From positions 186,001-250,000 of the forward strand of contig CALUZB010000004.1 of NCBI GenBank assembly GCA_944325195.1: DNA of 64,000 nt, read 5' to 3'. Shown in pieces: positions 57,026 through 64,000 of this stretch (the first letter of the stretch is position 1; each line of letters starts with the position of its first letter). The position numbers and the translations under genes were made by a program. Below the pieces are notes generated by a model, which saw nothing but the letters and a program-made list of their open reading frames with translations, did not search any database and was not told where the DNA came from. The DNA is from an uncultured Desulfovibrionaceae bacterium. GTDB taxonomy: Bacteria; Desulfobacterota; Desulfovibrionia; Desulfovibrionales; Desulfovibrionaceae.

Positions 57026-57511
57026 ATGCTCAAACACCCTAAAATAAAGACCTGGCCGGAGGCAGCCGCCCTGGTAAAAATCTGGCAGGGAGCCGGACTC
57101 AAAGTGGTTTTTACGAACGGCTGTTTTGATATTCTGCACGCCGGGCATGTGGATCTGCTGGCAAGGGCAGGGCAGGCGGGCGACAAACTGGTGATCGGGC
57201 TCAACTCCGACAGCTCTGTGCGCAAGCTTGGGAAATCTCCCGAGCGCCCGGTCAATCCACAGGAACAGCGGGCGTATGTACTGGCTCATCTGGAAAGCAC
57301 CGACTTGGTTGTGATTTTTGACCAGGATACTCCGCTTGAATTGATTGAAGCCTTGCAGCCGGACGTGCTGATTAAAGGTGGAGACTGGCCGGTGGATAAA
57401 ATTGTAGGTGCGGAGATTGTAACAAAGCGGGGCGGCCGGGTGCTGTCCTTGCCGCTTCTGCAAAACTTCTCCACCACTGCTATTATAGAGAAACTGAGTA
57501 AAAACCATTAG
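57026..57511 (+). CDS. D-glycero-beta-D-manno-heptose 1-phosphate adenylyltransferase
   Basis: A 161-residue nucleotidyltransferase equal to the C-terminal domain of HldE (RfaE2/HldC type). It makes ADP-heptose for the LPS inner core. Marks are VVFTNGCFDILHAGHVDLLARA with the HxGH motif, GLNSDSSVRKLGK, RPVNPQEQRA, and LIKGGDW. The kinase half is not attached, so it must be encoded elsewhere. Five bases after trpS, probably one transcript. Confidence 0.93.
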   Translation: MLKHPKIKTWPEAAALVKIWQGAGLKVVFTNGCFDILHAGHVDLLARAGQAGDKLVIGLNSDSSVRKLGKSPERPVNPQEQRAYVLAHLESTDLVVIFDQDTPLELIEALQPDVLIKGGDWPVDKIVGAEIVTKRGGRVLSLPLLQNFSTTAIIEKLSKNH

Positions 57512-57941
57512 CGGGACAGAGGGCAGACTGCATCAGTAGTCCATTTCACCACAAATTGTGTTTCCCAGGCCTGATTGGCACTTGTCCCTGATTATAGAAT
57601 TATGCAAGCAAACCGGCTTTTTTTCAAAAGCTATTCACAAACTAGTTCCAACCAGGTTGGTGTTGCGTATATCAGCTTTTGTGTAGCTCTGCTCAACAGT
57701 ATTGCAAAAGAAGTGTAACGCGCATACCCCATTAAAGTTATGTACATCTCTCATTTTCAGATTAGTAATTACAAAAAAAATTTACATGAAATTTGGGGAA
57801 CTGACTTTTGAGCAAACTAAGATTACTGCCAACAAACTATATTATTTGTAATGCTTGAACTCTGGCACTCTATTTGATTACCTGTAGAATATTGTTATAT
57901 ATAATTAAAAATTTATAAACAAATTTTTAAGAGGCATGCTA
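57512..57941 (+). other. AT-rich boundary region with possible tetR promoter
   Basis: About 430 AT-rich bases with no gene. TTGATT (57874-57879) and TATATA (57896-57901), 16 bases apart, may be the promoter of the TetR gene. No copy of the GGAATGAATATTC operator sequence is present here. Base composition changes sharply from the preceding trpS/heptose genes. Confidence 0.4.
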
Positions 57942-58610
57942 ATGAAACCGCTTTTTCAAAAAATTTCTAAAGAAAAGCAAAATAAAATATTAGGGGCAGC
58001 AATAAAGGTATTTGCCGACCGTGGTTACTACGACGCCAATGTTGAAAACATCTGCACAGAGGCCAATATTGCTGTTGGATCTTTTTACAGATATTTCGGA
58101 AACAAAGAAGATTTATGTATCTGCGCCTACAACTATGTAATAGAAGTAATGTTTAATGTGGTATACCAGATAGACAACTACGATGATAAAACCGTTTTTG
58201 AAGTAATCAGGGAACTACTTCATAGAACTCAGAAATTCTACCTTGAACATTCCAGCTTATTTTTGTTTTACGCAAATATTTGGACCCCTGCAATGAACCA
58301 CTTTGTTCCCAAGCTTAATATTAAAAGTGAAAATGAAATTGATAAATTCTGGATAGAACTAATTAAAAGAGGTCAAGCAAAAGGAGAAATTGACAAAATA
58401 TTTTCTCCCGAAAGCGCAGCATATCTGATTGACAGTCAGACATTGCTTTTTTCGTTCTCTCTCGGATCCATTTATCACAAAGAACGCTTTGATGCTTTTC
58501 TGCAATATGGTTTACCCAATCAAACCCTTGAGGATGTGATTGAAAAAATTATCCACACGCTTCAGTTGAGTCTGGCCCCACGCAACCCCACTACCAACAG
58601 AGCGGCATAG
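57942..58610 (+). CDS. TetR/AcrR-family transcriptional regulator
   Basis: A 222-residue repressor-type protein. The N-terminal TetR helix-turn-helix is clear: KQNKILGAAIKVFADRGYYDANVENICTEANIAVGSFYRYFGNKEDL (about residues 12-58). The rest is the helical ligand-binding and dimer domain, with aromatic segments suited to a small ligand. GAGG lies 7 bases before this ATG; an ATG two codons earlier is too close. Low G+C. It faces the symporter gene with the palindromic operators between, so it likely controls that operon. Confidence 0.9.
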   Translation: MKPLFQKISKEKQNKILGAAIKVFADRGYYDANVENICTEANIAVGSFYRYFGNKEDLCICAYNYVIEVMFNVVYQIDNYDDKTVFEVIRELLHRTQKFYLEHSSLFLFYANIWTPAMNHFVPKLNIKSENEIDKFWIELIKRGQAKGEIDKIFSPESAAYLIDSQTLLFSFSLGSIYHKERFDAFLQYGLPNQTLEDVIEKIIHTLQLSLAPRNPTTNRAA

Positions 58611-58644
58611 CCCACAAATTCTTCAACCAATACAAATTTTTTTG

Positions 58645-58748
58645 TTGACAGCGCTTCTGTTTTTAGAATAAAAAGGAATGAATATTCCTTCCTTTTTATT
58701 CTGGCAGGGAGTTTTTAAAGGGACGTAGGGAATGAATATTCATTCCCT
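58645..58748 (+). promoter_or_regulatory. Promoter and palindromic operators of the symporter operon
   Basis: TTGACA (58645-58650) with an ATAAAA -10 about 17 bases on. Over and after it lie two related sites: GGAATGAATATTCC (58675-58688), inside larger arms AGAATAAAAAGGAA (58665-58678) and TTCCTTTTTATTCT (58689-58702), and the perfect 20-bp palindrome GGGAATGAATATTCATTCCC (58728-58747). Both share GGAATGAATATTC. This is the expected layout for a TetR operator. The first hairpin might also end the tetR transcript. Confidence 0.7.
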
Positions 58749-58799
58749 CAAAACATCTGAGCTCATCATTGCACGCTCAGACTAGCTGAAGGAGGCGTT

Positions 58800-60290
58800 A
58801 TGATTTACGGGGTAGGGATCTTAATCTACATTCTCATAGTTATCGCCGTGGGGTGGAGTGCTAAAAAAAGAATCAAGTCTGCTGAGGATTATCTTGTGGC
58901 AGGTCGTTCACTCAGTTGGCCGCTTAACTCCGCGACCTTGACCGCTGCATTTTTTGGCGGATTTATTGCCATTGCGATCCCAGGTGCCGCTTATACCACG
59001 GGTATTTGGAATGACGAATACGCATGGGGGCTAATTCCCGGCATTGGTGGTCCGGTTCTTTGCCTGATTCTGGCAGGGACTTTTTTCATGCCTAAAATCT
59101 GGCGTATGAAGCTCTATTCCCTAGCCGACTATTTCTTTTTGCGCTACGGAAAAATAACAGGCACTTTGGCCACAATAATGCTCTGCGGCAGTTTTATTAT
59201 GTATGGCGCAGTACAGATTGTTGTTTTTGCGAAAGTTGCGTCATCTATCCTCGAATGGCCGTCATTGCAGGCAACACTTGTCGCCGTCACAGTGATTTGC
59301 ATATACTCGGTGCTTGGGGGGCTCTGGGCTGTTTCACTTACTGATATTCTACAGGTAAGCGTGATGATCATCAGCATCGCCTTTGTACTATGTGGAATAG
59401 TCTATATGATGGGTGGTTGGGAAGTGGCTTCAGCCACCATTCCTGAAGACAGGTTGCAGTTTTTCCCTAAAGAATTAGCGTTCACACCCTGGCTGGCTTG
59501 GATCGCAGCTTGGTTGACCAGCGGATTCGGCTCCATTCCCAGCCCGGACCTGATGCAACGCGCATTTTCAGCGAGAACCCCACAAATAGCACGTAATTCA
59601 GCTTATACCGCTGCTTTTATAATATTGGTTGTCGGGAGTCTTTCTTCCGTAATCGGATTTTTAGGAATCGAGTTAATAAAAAACGGTACTGTGCCTGAGT
59701 CGGCTTTGATGGGTGACCCTGAACTGCTTGCTCCTGTCATTGTTAAGGCAATGTTCCCGGTAGGAATTGTTGCTGTTTTCCTGGGTGCATGCCTGGCCGC
59801 AGTTATGTCCACAGGCGCCTCATGCATGTTAGCGCTTTCCAGCATGCTTTATCAAAATGTGATCAGGAAAGTCTTTTTCCGGAACAGCGGTGATGACAAA
59901 ATGGTGCTCCTAACCCGCTTAACCGTCGTCGCCATGTGCTTGATGGTACTCTTTATCGCCCTGGGGTTCCCCTATGCCTATGTTCTTACGATGTTTGCCT
60001 TTGATCTTACTCTTTCCACCCTGTTTATCCCCCTGGTACTTGGATTTTTCTGGAAGAAATCTAATGGATTCGGGGCAACTTGCGGGATTGCGGCTGGAGC
60101 TATGGTCAGGATTGTTGGCGCGGGCATTCTTGGGGGATTCAGCTTTGAAGGGATAACTGCAACTTCTGAATACTGGTATTACTTTACCCTTGCCGGACCG
60201 TTAGCTTCCCTAATCTTTATGATACTTGGTACACTGCTTACGCAAAAGCAATTCCCTCCGAAACAGGTTGTGGTTTCAACAGACGATTAG
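58800..60290 (+). CDS. Sodium:solute symporter, TetR-linked
   Basis: A 496-residue SSS-family transporter with about 13 membrane helices. Marks: SAEDYLVAGRSLSWPLNSATLTAA after helix 1 (the xDFYVAGR position), a GGLWAVSLTDILQ segment, the GSIPSPDLMQRAFSARTPQIARNSA cytoplasmic segment, and LAAVMSTGASCMLALSSM at the sodium-site helix. GGAGG lies 5 bases before the ATG. It lies just downstream of the palindromic operators and upstream of an MBL-fold gene. Substrate unknown; a small organic acid, amino acid or choline-like compound is possible. Confidence 0.88.
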   Translation: MIYGVGILIYILIVIAVGWSAKKRIKSAEDYLVAGRSLSWPLNSATLTAAFFGGFIAIAIPGAAYTTGIWNDEYAWGLIPGIGGPVLCLILAGTFFMPKIWRMKLYSLADYFFLRYGKITGTLATIMLCGSFIMYGAVQIVVFAKVASSILEWPSLQATLVAVTVICIYSVLGGLWAVSLTDILQVSVMIISIAFVLCGIVYMMGGWEVASATIPEDRLQFFPKELAFTPWLAWIAAWLTSGFGSIPSPDLMQRAFSARTPQIARNSAYTAAFIILVVGSLSSVIGFLGIELIKNGTVPESALMGDPELLAPVIVKAMFPVGIVAVFLGACLAAVMSTGASCMLALSSMLYQNVIRKVFFRNSGDDKMVLLTRLTVVAMCLMVLFIALGFPYAYVLTMFAFDLTLSTLFIPLVLGFFWKKSNGFGATCGIAAGAMVRIVGAGILGGFSFEGITATSEYWYYFTLAGPLASLIFMILGTLLTQKQFPPKQVVVSTDD

Positions 60291-60311
60291 AGCGCATTTT
60301 TAACTAATACC

Positions 60312-60333
60312 CATGAAATGTAAATATTTCATG
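60312..60333 (+). repeat. Hairpin between symporter and MBL gene
   Basis: Arms CATGAAAT (60312-60319) and ATTTCATG (60326-60333) with a 6-base loop, in the 68-base gap between the two genes. It may set the relative amounts of the two messages. Confidence 0.5.
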
Positions 60334-60358
60334 AAAACAAAGCAATAAGGAGACAAAC

Positions 60359-61339
60359 ATGAGCAAACTTAACCTTCGCCCCAACGGCTTCCGTCCCAAA
60401 CGGGAAAACTGGGTTCCCTCAATTCAGACCATCCAGCTGAGCGACAACCTGCTTTGCTTCTACGATGGCCGCACCAGAGCAGGTGAACCAATTTTTGCCG
60501 AAACAGATGAAAATTGGCCGCAAGTGGATATGGATCTGGGAACCTGCTGCTACGTTCTTTACAGGGGAGATGAGGCAGTGGTGTTTGACACCATGATCAT
60601 GCCGGAACAGGCCCAATATGTACGTAATCGCATGGAATCGTTGGGAGTAAAAAAATTCACCGTAATCATTTCACACATGGACCTTGACCACAATGGCGGG
60701 AATGCAGTTTTCGCAGATTGCGAAATTATTTCGCAAAAAGGAACTCATGACGTTCTGGCAAAACATAAGGAACTAATTGAAAGCGGGGGCTGGTGGGGAA
60801 ATGACAACGAGTTTTGGGGGCCTCCAGCTATAAACCCGTTTGTGCTGCCGAACACCTTGATTGAACAAGATACCAAACGCACTCTTGCCGGATTTGAGTT
60901 GGAACTACTCCATACAAAAGCTCATCAGTTTGGCGGGAACCTCTGTGTTTATATTCCGGAGTACAAAGCGATGATTGTGGGAGATATAGCTGAGGATAGC
61001 TGCATATATGTTGGTGAAGCCGATGATATCCTGATCAGTATAGATGAAACTAAACGACTTTTGGATTTTGACATCGACTATGTATTCCCGATGCACGGCG
61101 ACCCGAACAAAATCGCTAAAGGGGCTTATGACAAGCGCTTTATCGAGGCAGCTATTGTTTATCAGCAACGCCTCCATAGCCGAATGCATGAACCCGGATA
61201 TTTCGACTCGGAGTTGGATGATTACCTGGGAGAATATATCAGGGAAGGTGTGCTTACCCCGTTTGAGCCTTACTATGGAATCCACAAAGTCAACACCCGC
61301 TATGTCTATAAACACTGGGTAACTAAAAGGAAAAAGTAG
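60359..61339 (+). CDS. Metallo-beta-lactamase-fold protein with HxDxDH motif
   Basis: A 326-residue cytoplasmic MBL-fold protein. The metal motif is H106-M-D108-L-D110-H111, followed by H189, D209 and H246 in the expected order. The second histidine of the usual HxHxDH is Asp here; flavodiiron proteins have Glu at this place and ComEC-type domains Asp, so the metal may not be a standard di-zinc pair. AAGGAG lies 7 bases before the ATG. Position after the symporter suggests that it acts on the imported compound or senses redox state. No known subfamily could be named. Confidence 0.8.
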   Translation: MSKLNLRPNGFRPKRENWVPSIQTIQLSDNLLCFYDGRTRAGEPIFAETDENWPQVDMDLGTCCYVLYRGDEAVVFDTMIMPEQAQYVRNRMESLGVKKFTVIISHMDLDHNGGNAVFADCEIISQKGTHDVLAKHKELIESGGWWGNDNEFWGPPAINPFVLPNTLIEQDTKRTLAGFELELLHTKAHQFGGNLCVYIPEYKAMIVGDIAEDSCIYVGEADDILISIDETKRLLDFDIDYVFPMHGDPNKIAKGAYDKRFIEAAIVYQQRLHSRMHEPGYFDSELDDYLGEYIREGVLTPFEPYYGIHKVNTRYVYKHWVTKRKK

Positions 61340-61347
61340 ACTTTAAA

Positions 61348-61560
61348 ATGCCCATTCGCATTAAACAGGATCTTAGCGTTTTTATCGACCTTTGACTGGG
61401 TGGTTAGTGCGTAACCTGTTTATTCCTATGGGCGTTAAAAATGATACAGGCTACCCGGGCAGGCATTCTTTATACCAAGCTTCAAGTGCTTGCCTGGGTA
61501 GCGGAACAAGGATCATTTTAAAGGCTTTGGTTGTTTCATATGTGTTGCTTAGCTGTTTGT
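61348..61560 (+). pseudogene. Decayed fragment of an EamA-type transporter gene
   Basis: The sequence after the MBL gene aligns with the intact EamA gene at 63275. The two ATG regions match (AAATGCCCATTCGCATTAA here against AAATGCTTATCCGCATTAA). A later block around 61391-61510 matches the bases near 63500-63600, and conceptual translation with a frame change gives ATRAGILYTKLQVLAWVAE against AIRASILYALFPMLTWIAA. The part between has been deleted (about 150 bases or more) and the frame is broken by stops. This is a relic of a second EamA copy. The limits are approximate. Confidence 0.75.
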
Positions 61561-61657
61561 GACGCTCCTCATAGTTCATTGATAACGCAAAGATTGATTC
61601 CGTCTTTTCCATATAACTCTACGGGGACTTTAAACAATAAAGAGCAAGGAGGACCAG

Positions 61658-63109
61658 ATGAGAAAATTATTGGGGATAATTTTTTTCTGCACGGCTTTAG
61701 TCGCTGAAAGTACAGCGCAAGCAACAGAAATAAATGTTAAAGGATATTTTGATTTTGGCTTCGGTTTATATAGCGGCACTAACTTTAAAAAACACGACAA
61801 TGAAGAAAATTTCGATGCCGGGCAACAGCTTCGTACCCAGATTGATATCATTGCCAGTGAGTCCTTAAAAGGCGTGTTGATGTTTGAAATCGGACCGACC
61901 TTCTGGGGCAACGGGGGAGGAGCTTCTTGGGGGGACACCCCAAAAGCCGGTGAAGGTACTGGTGGTGCGATGGGCGCCGATGGAGTGAGCATTGAAGTAA
62001 AACAGATGTATATCGACTGGCTTATACCTAATACTGATGCTCAAGTTAGAATGGGGATCCAGATGTTTTCTTTGCCCAATGCGGTATGGCGGGGAGATTA
62101 TCTCATGGGCGGCGTTGTTACAGACGATGAAGCGCCAGGCGTTCTGGTCTCCAATTCATTTAACGAAAATATCGGGATCAGCCTAGGTTGGTTCCGCCCC
62201 TGGGATCCTTACGCCAACGATGAACTTAAAAATCGTACAATGCCTGGCAGGTTGAATAGTGACGAAATTGACGCTTTCTTTTTGACTGTGCCCATTGACA
62301 TGAGAGACATATTCAACCTTACCCCTTATTTTATGTATGCATCCATCGGGGAAGTGGATACAGCTCCTGAGACAAACGGAGAGTTGAGTAGAAACGGTTT
62401 GATTTCACACTACCTAACCTCCAACGGCACACTGGGCAATCACGGTCAAGCATGGTGGACCGGACTGGCTTTTACCCTTAATCACTTTGATCCGTTCAAT
62501 GCCTATTTGGACCTGGTTTATGGTTCATATAGTGCTGATAGTGTAGAGCCCGGTAATATGGCTATCACCCATAACCCTGACCGTGATGGCTGGGTGGCTG
62601 TCGGCAAACTGGAATATAAACTGGATTATTTTACCCCTAACATCTTCGGCTGGTATGCCTCTGGCTCTGACAGTATTACAAAGGACGGTTTTGATGGAAT
62701 GATGCCGGGACTGTCCCCGTTTTTTGGGCTGACTTCTTTCGGCTTCTCCAGTGATAGGAGTGATATTTCCAGGCAAACTATTATGGGGTACGACCCCTAT
62801 GGGAAATGGGCTGTTGGCGTTGGTCTTGACAATATAAATATGATTGAAGACCTCAATTCGCACTTCCGGATAATGTTCATGCGAGGAACGAACAACACTG
62901 ACAATTTTGACTCCGCTTTCTCAGATTACCGTGTGCTTGACTCAAAAGACAAAGCTTTTGAAGTTAATCTGGACAACGTGTACAAAATTTATGACAACCT
63001 TGAATTGCGTGTTGATCTGGCCTATTTCAACTTACAATTACACAACGAGCCTGCTGATTTTGAGGAAAATGCCTGGAAGGCATATACCGGCTTCAGATAC
63101 ACTTTTTAA
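61658..63109 (+). CDS. Desulfovibrio-type homotrimeric outer-membrane porin
   Basis: A 483-residue outer-membrane protein. A signal peptide (about 1-22, ending AQA) is followed by a beta-barrel rich in alternating aromatic residues, starting INVKGYFDFGFGLY and ending in the typical terminal phenylalanine (AYTGFRYTF). An early QLRTQIDIIASESLKGVLMFEIG segment and WGDYLMGG-like WRGDYLMGG match the homotrimeric porin group of Desulfovibrio. It probably lets small anions or nutrients through the outer membrane. AAGGAGG stands 9 bases before the ATG. It lies between a dead and a live EamA gene. Confidence 0.85.
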   Translation: MRKLLGIIFFCTALVAESTAQATEINVKGYFDFGFGLYSGTNFKKHDNEENFDAGQQLRTQIDIIASESLKGVLMFEIGPTFWGNGGGASWGDTPKAGEGTGGAMGADGVSIEVKQMYIDWLIPNTDAQVRMGIQMFSLPNAVWRGDYLMGGVVTDDEAPGVLVSNSFNENIGISLGWFRPWDPYANDELKNRTMPGRLNSDEIDAFFLTVPIDMRDIFNLTPYFMYASIGEVDTAPETNGELSRNGLISHYLTSNGTLGNHGQAWWTGLAFTLNHFDPFNAYLDLVYGSYSADSVEPGNMAITHNPDRDGWVAVGKLEYKLDYFTPNIFGWYASGSDSITKDGFDGMMPGLSPFFGLTSFGFSSDRSDISRQTIMGYDPYGKWAVGVGLDNINMIEDLNSHFRIMFMRGTNNTDNFDSAFSDYRVLDSKDKAFEVNLDNVYKIYDNLELRVDLAYFNLQLHNEPADFEENAWKAYTGFRYTF

Positions 63110-63115
63110 AACCAT

Positions 63116-63150
63116 AAGGAAGCTGTTGGGAACCTGCAGCTTCCTTAATT
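63116..63150 (+). terminator. Terminator of the porin gene
   Basis: AAGGAAGCTG (63116-63125) and CAGCTTCCTT (63137-63146), a perfect 10-bp stem, followed by AATT. Confidence 0.75.
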
Positions 63151-63274
63151 ACAATTTAGGGCCAAATGATTTAGGTCAAATATTCATAAAGCCTGTGTGC
63201 ATTACCATACTTTGGTGGAATCAATAATAAATTTGTATAAGATATTGAAATAACCCCAAAAAAGTAGGTCTTAA

Positions 63275-64000
63275 ATGCTTATCCGCATTAAGCTGATTCT
63301 AACAACATTGTTTATAGGCTTTGTCATTGTCGGCAATAAAATTATTGCCTCAGATGTGCCACCGTATTCCGCTATTATTTTAAGATTTTCAATCGCCACA
63401 ATCCTATTACTGTTTTTGCTCGCTAAACGCAAAGAATTAAAACAGTTACTAAAGCCCTCCCACACACAATGGATTGCGTTTGTTGTTTTGGCTTTCAGCG
63501 GCGTAGTCGGTTACAATCTATTTATGCTTATAGGCGTAAAAACCGTGCCCGCTATCCGAGCAAGCATTCTTTATGCCTTATTTCCAATGCTTACCTGGAT
63601 AGCTGCATGGTTCATATTTAAGGAAAGATTAACACTAAAAGCCATGTTCGGCTCATTGTGCTGTCTGGCCGGCGTGGTACTTGCACTCGGTCAGGGATTT
63701 CAGGATGTTACAAGCAATCTTTCTTTGAACATTGGCGATATCTTTATTTTACTATCGCTTCTGTGTTGGGTGTCCTACGCCCTTATAAGTAAATGGCTGT
63801 TATCAAATTTTGACCCACTGCTGGTTACAACTATAACTTGTCTGGTTGCATGCGTACTACTCGCGCCTTTCGCAGTGGTAGAAGACTTTTTTATAGTTTT
63901 AACTACCCTGAACACCACCGCGTGGATTGTTATAGTCATTCAGGGCATATTCTCCACCTTTTTGACATTTCTATGGTATTGTGAAGGAATGGAAAGTCTC
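63275..64000 (+). CDS. EamA/DMT-family transporter, cut by the window end
   Basis: The first 242 residues of a 10-helix drug/metabolite transporter; the frame runs to the last base without a stop. About eight membrane helices are visible. Marks are the first helix TTLFIGFVIVGNKIIASDVPP, LRFSIATILLL, the YNLFMLIGVKTVPAIRASILYALFPMLTWIAAW region that is highly typical of EamA, and a second repeat beginning GDIFILLSLLCW. AGG lies about 6 bases before the ATG. Substrate unknown. A broken copy of this gene lies upstream of the porin. Confidence 0.88.
   Translation, partial: MLIRIKLILTTLFIGFVIVGNKIIASDVPPYSAIILRFSIATILLLFLLAKRKELKQLLKPSHTQWIAFVVLAFSGVVGYNLFMLIGVKTVPAIRASILYALFPMLTWIAAWFIFKERLTLKAMFGSLCCLAGVVLALGQGFQDVTSNLSLNIGDIFILLSLLCWVSYALISKWLLSNFDPLLVTTITCLVACVLLAPFAVVEDFFIVLTTLNTTAWIVIVIQGIFSTFLTFLWYCEGMESL

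Follow-up and report, generated by a model that had tools for sequence, protein, structure and literature searches.

What could be the role of a transcriptional regulator, a sodium symporter and an enzyme of the metallo-beta-lactamase (MBL) fold that stand side by side around two palindromes, at a place that is empty in a sister species? This question is raised by a locus at the end of a 64,000-nucleotide stretch of DNA (hereafter the window; positions 186,001 to 250,000 of contig CALUZB010000004.1, assembly GCA_944325195.1) from an uncultured Desulfovibrionaceae bacterium. An earlier note on this DNA described the locus as a compact import-and-process unit. The analysis reported here points, with about an even chance of being right, to a probably acquired, TetR-repressed and substrate-inducible module for the uptake and hydrolysis of a small amide, ureido or guanidino compound. 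All its parts come from known families; what is new is their combination, the swap of the transporter between two parallel loci and a pair of MBL-fold proteins carrying HxDxDH.

Gene content and a parallel locus in the same genome

The first gene of the locus, on the forward strand like all those described in the window, encodes a TetR-family regulator (57936-58610) whose TetR_N DNA-binding domain is recognised by Pfam PF00440 (E 5.4e-14, 52.2 bits, cut-off 24). Its start could be 57936 or 57942, the latter being the next in-frame ATG, with a better spacing from AAGAGG; both are equally possible. It is followed by a sodium:solute symporter (SSS; 58800-60290) matching the SSF profile PF00474 (E 6.3e-40, 137.7 bits, cut-off 22.8) and, after a gap of 68 bp, by an MBL-fold protein of 326 aa (60359-61339) whose sole Pfam domain is PF00753 (E 7.5e-11, 42.8 bits, cut-off 22.7). 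Further on lies a Desulfovibrio-type outer-membrane porin (61658-63109), one of the 7 copies found in the genome, which scores 406.6 bits with the NCBIfam model DESULF_POR1 (subfamily cut-off 250) and has no Pfam match. The SSS, MBL and porin genes are all preceded by AAGGAG ribosome sites. Pfam and NCBIfam thus recover the regulator, the symporter, the MBL-fold protein and the porin after them, as named in the earlier note. The gap between the SSS and MBL genes (60291-60358) also holds a repeat, CATGAAAT-GTAAAT-ATTTCATG.

The same order is seen at a second locus of this genome, on contig C15. This locus includes the only TetR paralogue of the genome (39% identity with the window protein), a transporter of the major facilitator superfamily (MFS), an MBL protein (54-56% identity) and a porin (48-50% identity). 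The C15 MBL protein, encoded near the C15 TetR gene, is the closest paralogue of the window copy. The transporter is therefore swapped (SSS versus MFS) while the families of the regulator, the enzyme and the porin stay, and this repetition of the order TetR-transporter-MBL-porin supports the existence of a compact import-and-process unit. Three isochorismatase-fold cysteine hydrolases, two more MFS genes, a GntR gene and a second porin lie beside the C15 cluster. A perfect 13-bp inverted repeat (ATATGACGACTTA/TAAGTCGTCATAT; L035:13944-13976) precedes the second of the C15 MFS genes, with a GntR/UTRA gene further along; this repeat is possibly a GntR operator.

Palindromes and promoter

The 189-bp region between the TetR and SSS genes carries two palindromes. 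The perfect 20-bp palindrome mentioned in the earlier note, GGGAATGAATATTCATTCCC, is real and can be extended to 22 bp (58727-58748; candidate operator 2). The related second site is real as well and lies at the heart of a longer palindrome of 38 bp, in which 18 of the 19 pairs match (58665-58702; candidate operator 1); the cores of both sites share GGAATGAATATTC, 54 bp apart. Both palindromes go far beyond chance, since 20,000 dinucleotide shuffles of the intergenic region gave a perfect 22-mer once and a perfect 20-mer five times; a palindrome with 18 of 19 pairs never appeared. Each palindrome is unique at its strength in the window, and one further perfect 20-bp palindrome (at L110) was found among the stretches of the same genome scanned elsewhere. 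Across the 2.48-Mb genome, GGAATGAATATTCNTTCC with zero or one mismatch is confined to this locus; the next similar place, with two mismatches, lies inside an unrelated open reading frame (ORF) on contig C20.

The promoter around which these sites lie had been called clear. Its candidate -35 box, TTGACA (58645-58650), is perfect. However, the candidate -10 box, TAAAAA (58669-58674, 18-bp spacing), is weak even though it is the best one at a legal spacing, and a consensus promoter scan does not list the pair; because of this, the former wording is an overstatement. On C15, a palindrome (AGAGAGCGAGCGCTCTCT) also has its centre 37 bp away from where a TTGACA box begins, compared with 39 bp in the window. 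The two palindromes differ in sequence, and each exact form occurs only at its own locus in this genome.

Both palindromes could alternatively act as RNA hairpins in the leader (attenuation) instead of operators. They fold well as RNA (z -5.1 and -4.6), but such folding is expected of any perfect palindrome, a GGAATGAATATTC core is shared by both sites, and no Rfam match was found; the chance that attenuation is the right explanation appears very slight. Binding by the TetR protein is the preferred interpretation. The NCBIfam model nearest to the DNA-binding part of this protein is FadR, at 49.9 bits over residues 12-77 only, compared with a cut-off of 200 for the Bacillus-type FadR equivalog. 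The consensus of the Bacillus subtilis FadR operator is near GAATGA-N4-TCATTC; no paper giving this consensus was found, and it is not used as evidence here.

An empty site in the sister species and the probable acquisition of the block

In a sister species of the same genus (G001), rfaE2 is followed by 175 bp and then by fliR-flhB-flhA, so that the site is empty. The proteins encoded by rfaE2, fliR and flhB share 81-83% identity between the two genomes. In the genome studied here, 6.9 kb separate rfaE2 and fliR: homology ends at 57498 and restarts at 64426, past the window end, and the block absent from the sister species covers positions 57499-64000 of the window. An AT-rich block spans about the same interval (57.5-64.4 kb). 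Its positions 57936-63109 have a GC content of 44.3%, compared with 50.6% for positions 1-57000, which confirms that the surroundings of the locus are AT-richer than the first 57 kb. Among 5.17-kb stretches of these first 57 kb, sampled every 200 bases, the lowest value was 45.8% and none came down to 44.3%. The block thus joins an empty site in a sister species to an atypical composition, as a recently gained or lost block does.

The distribution of the MBL family is also very narrow. At E 1e-20, it was found in 2 of 288 genomes of the bacterial family, namely the own genome and G001, and among these 288 it is confined to this genus; at E 1e-30, it was found in 1 of 395 genomes of the phylum, the own one. 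The single member present in G001 is of a different type (35% identity). At E 0.001, 34 of 59 relatives have matches, the best one outside the genus being at 9e-13; those outside the genus are taken as ordinary MBL-fold proteins. Because of the empty site, the low GC content and this rarity, a gain of the block is likelier than a loss, and the block was probably acquired. Four other genomes of the family are uninformative about the ancestral state because the neighbours of rfaE2 differ there (the position of trpS was determined in 12 genomes, of which five regions were read).

Nothing at the block designates an integrase-borne element: no tRNA gene was found, its two ends show no repeat pair, and inspection of the ORFs by eye brought up no integrase. 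A plasmid scan gave 22 records, all below 60% identity (31-34% in ten of the 22). When viral contigs were scanned with the HxDxDH pair, a single match of 34 residues came up, which was judged to be due to chance.

The MBL-fold enzyme and its modified motif

A wider genome-contig scan listed at least 67 MBL loci, possibly without near relatives. The set compared here has 66 rows, i.e., 62 of 67 listed loci and four copies from the own genome; L101-L105, for which only part of the query matched (E 2e-6 or worse), were dropped before counting. Of the 66 rows, 63 have a His at the second position of motif 2; the copies of the window and of C15 have an Asp there, and one row (L042) is out of frame. 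In 61 rows, none of the seven ligand positions departs from the canonical residue. The window protein (HMDLDH) and the C15 protein (HMDMDH) depart from the canonical HxHxDH; they pair in the tree with a SH-aLRT support of 100, on a long branch, and have in common an N-terminal GFRPKRENWVP, in a part where the model confidence is low.

Several observations concern other MBL genes. The C6-type MBL gene and its counterpart in the sister species are each followed by a gene for a protein of 145-153 aa (L036:8777-9214 and L038:7782-8243, respectively); these two proteins are similar in sequence, and no Pfam match was obtained for that of C6. Relatives such as those of L066, L093 and L064 have an AAA ATPase gene 0.9 kb before them (10 loci), a CoxE VWA protein gene about 1 kb after them (11 loci) and an XdhC gene 3-5 kb after them (11 loci), one of each having been checked with Pfam. 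These neighbours are possibly linked to molybdenum-enzyme maturation.

The AlphaFold model of the window MBL (20 sequences) has a mean pLDDT of 88. Among the 50 fold matches listed (Z 22-26), the closest is chlorothalonil dehalogenase (6UXU; Z 26.1, root-mean-square deviation 2.9, 264 residues, 14% identity), and the list also includes 8D2Z (Z 24.7, deviation 3.1, 262 residues, 18% identity); beta-lactamases come next in the ranking (Z 22.5-24). The locus could thus detoxify a xenobiotic or a drug, the TetR protein sensing the compound and the MBL protein destroying it as chlorothalonil dehalogenase does. The TetR control and the closest fold are in agreement with such a role. However, the identity to the dehalogenase is very limited, the protein reaches only 34 bits with the NCBIfam model of class B beta-lactamases (core cut-off 100), and a symporter and a porin suit uptake better than efflux, so detoxification seems fairly unlikely.

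SdsA1 is another of the fold matches, and weak matches to sec-alkylsulfatase were found in the PDB (E 0.005). The host family includes sulfate reducers, and the MBL protein might act on an organic ester and set free sulfate, or some other anion that can be respired, to feed sulfur respiration. The sec-alkylsulfatase match spans about 55 residues, though, and the window protein has a single domain; little credit can be given to this role.

A lactone-cleaving unit of the quorum-quenching type, in which the MBL protein would open lactones and the TetR protein would sense the lactone or its acyl product, has also been considered. HXDXDH has a precedent in the putative lactonase Y2-AiiA of Acinetobacter (PMC6146095), and the DNA-binding part of the regulator is nearest to FadR. 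On the other hand, the MBL protein scores 26.5 bits with the NCBIfam equivalog model of the acyl-homoserine lactone lactonase AiiA (cut-off 375), the regulator stays far below the FadR cut-off, and no acyl-CoA genes are seen among the ORFs of the block; a lactonase unit is quite improbable. Lastly, the Asp could create an iron site, the protein being a redox or sensor protein instead of a hydrolase. According to PMC7785958, an acidic residue (Glu) replaces the second His in flavodiiron proteins, and acidic residues at this place mark iron sites in the superfamily. However, the single-domain window protein has no fused flavodoxin domain, and neither such a domain nor any other redox partner was recognised among the ORFs. 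A redox or sensor role is thus very improbable, and hydrolysis remains the preferred activity.

The symporter and the class of the substrate

The SSS protein stays well below the NCBIfam equivalog cut-offs of PutP (118.5 versus 515.5 bits) and PanF (99.4 versus 328.05), and among the SSS structures that have been solved it comes nearest to choline transporters (E 8e-27). It belongs to a nine-member clade of the own genome (support 100/100), in which it is sister to the other eight (85/84). Six of these eight lie 68-1327 bp from an arginine:glycine amidinotransferase (AGAT)-like gene; the binomial probability of this proximity, 1e-6, is a rough guide only, the distance having been chosen after seeing the data. 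Two AGAT-like proteins that were tested match the solved AGAT near full length (E 1.5e-58 and 3.1e-48), and the alignment keeps the His and Cys stretches that we take to be catalytic.

MBL relatives with isochorismatase-fold cysteine hydrolases in their vicinity are found on C15, on C19 and in a rumen Coriobacteriaceae (L090). For the C19 hydrolase, the nearest NCBIfam model is biuret amidohydrolase, which it matches with 77 bits, short of the cut-off (370). A creatininase-family gene adjoins an AGAT-like gene on C10, and such genes lie 6-8 kb from the MBL gene in five listed loci; Pfam was used to check that of Hyphomicrobium facile (L054). The earlier note saw no recognisable substrate for any part of the locus. 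The symporter clade beside AGAT-like genes, the cysteine hydrolases near MBL relatives and the creatininase-family genes narrow the choice to amidino, ureido and amide compounds. By analogy, the likeliest substrate is a small nitrogen compound with an amide, ureido or guanidino group, of the creatinine or biuret type, an assignment whose odds are perhaps even. As these hints come from paralogous loci, the class can only be inferred.

The AGAT-like genes deserve attention in their own right. The own genome has 17 matches, which amount to about 16 genes since one of them is split in two, located at L107, L108, L110, L111, L112, L114, L116, L138 and L140-L144, and G001 has 16, some of them being fragments at contig ends; none was found at E 1e-20 in the 57 other genomes searched. 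This expansion restricted to one genus may be more surprising than the locus itself. Several of these genes sit with an SSS symporter gene and a gene for a divergent protein of about 540 aa that has weak TPR matches. At L142:3704-6789, an AGAT-like gene, an EamA gene and a creatininase-family gene stand in a row; the copy at L140:5305-6451 (G000:C4:490304-491435) consists of two overlapping pieces with an inner stop.

The porin and the EamA genes

The earlier note supposed that the porin may add the outer-membrane step. In favour of this, two of the seven porin genes have one of the four MBL genes at 0.7 kb or less, and two more have one within 10 kb (binomial probabilities of 4e-5 within 10 kb and 5e-4 within 1 kb, rough guides only as the distances were set post hoc). 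Of the other three, one has an AGAT-like gene at a distance of 0.4 kb, and two are close to neither kind of gene. However, the 318-bp gap before the window porin contains a decayed EamA fragment (61413-61524; score 66, versus a maximum of 28 in 300 shuffles) with 72% identity over 112 nt to the EamA transporter gene that starts at 63275. Because of this fragment, the porin may lie outside the operon. The EamA gene itself occupies 63275-64000 and runs past the window (to 64159 in extended coordinates); its membership of the unit is uncertain. A likely history would be that SSS, MBL and EamA genes came first and that the porin later came to be flanked by two EamA copies, one dead and one live. 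A search for an EamA remnant in the C15 MBL-porin gap gave a local score of 19, for which there is no shuffle baseline. The window EamA protein has 25-29% identity with the exporters of the AGAT loci, which rules out that it is the same exporter.

Proposed functioning of the module and points that weigh against it

According to the proposed scheme, a TetR dimer would bind, in the absence of ligand, at either or both of the palindromes, which would span the transcription start of the SSS and MBL genes, presumably co-transcribed, and block their expression. Binding of the compound or of its product to the TetR protein would lift repression. The compound would then pass through the outer membrane by the porin, be carried inward with sodium by the SSS symporter and be hydrolysed in the cytosol by the MBL-fold enzyme. 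A product might be exported by EamA.

Several points weigh against this scheme. The conserved TetR-SSS-MBL order that the earlier note proposed to look for in relatives fails for orthologues, given the MBL family in 2 of 288 genomes and the empty site of the sister species. No orthologous neighbourhood was found in the 288 family genomes, in the 395 phylum genomes or among the matches listed from the wider scan; the conservation of the unit rests as a result on one paralogous pair. Even within this pair, the upstream DNA aligns no better than shuffled sequences (score 19 for a shuffle mean of 19.0), which rules out homology of the two promoters in sequence and means that their layouts are parallel in placing only. 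The window locus itself has no cysteine hydrolase, AGAT or creatininase-family gene, and the AGAT-like gene nearest to its symporter is 38.8 kb off. Of the two remaining symporters of the clade, one lies 16 kb from an AGAT-like gene and the other is on a contig without any. The neighbours that recur most often around the MBL family, in 10-18 of its 66 loci, are two protein clusters, one of them apparently glycosyltransferase-like, and the AAA, CoxE and XdhC proteins; they do not speak for ureido chemistry. Finally, the EamA remnant suggests that the porin joined later.

A bolder, and distinctly unlikely, extension of the scheme is that the two HxDxDH proteins found a subfamily whose iron- or manganese-type site opens or hydrolyses a guanidino or ureido (creatinine-like) compound without oxygen. 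With its roughly 16 AGAT-like genes and their symporters, the genus would then be specialised in scavenging, in the hindgut of ruminants, the guanidino waste of the host.

An unassigned MBL subfamily with a changed metal-ligand residue gains a concrete genetic context, and the locus offers two candidate operators and a testable substrate class. If this class is true, a gut member of the Desulfovibrionaceae would be linked to the degradation of guanidino or ureido compounds from its host.

Comparison with known systems

A search of literature listings for this kind of locus brought no paper that could be recognised as describing one. The nearest system is the C15 locus, which resembles the window in gene order, in the TetR and MBL families, in the Asp of motif 2, in the porin and in the palindrome near TTGACA. 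It differs in having MFS for SSS, another operator, a GC content of 49-55% in the genes measured, and the three cysteine hydrolases and the second porin nearby. The rumen Coriobacteriaceae RUG12840 (L090) groups TetR, MFS, cysteine hydrolase, MFS, MBL and SSS genes, so that TetR, MBL, SSS and MFS are found in one cluster, and its MFS proteins share 57-64% identity with those of C15. Unlike the window, this cluster includes a cysteine hydrolase; its MBL protein (HWHLDH) is 30% identical and its SSS protein 26% identical to the window counterparts, and BLAST at 1e-3 finds nothing there that matches the TetR of the window.

As regards the enzyme, the fold alignments with chlorothalonil dehalogenase (6UXU) and with the Burkholderia MBL protein (8D2Z) span nearly the whole window protein, whereas sequence identity is 14 and 18% and the Asp replaces the second His of motif 2. 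Y2-AiiA has HXDXDH in common with the window MBL, the AiiA model remaining far under its cut-off. Although it is devoid of their flavodoxin domain, the window MBL resembles the flavodiiron proteins in that the second His has given way to an acidic residue, Glu in the latter and Asp in the former.

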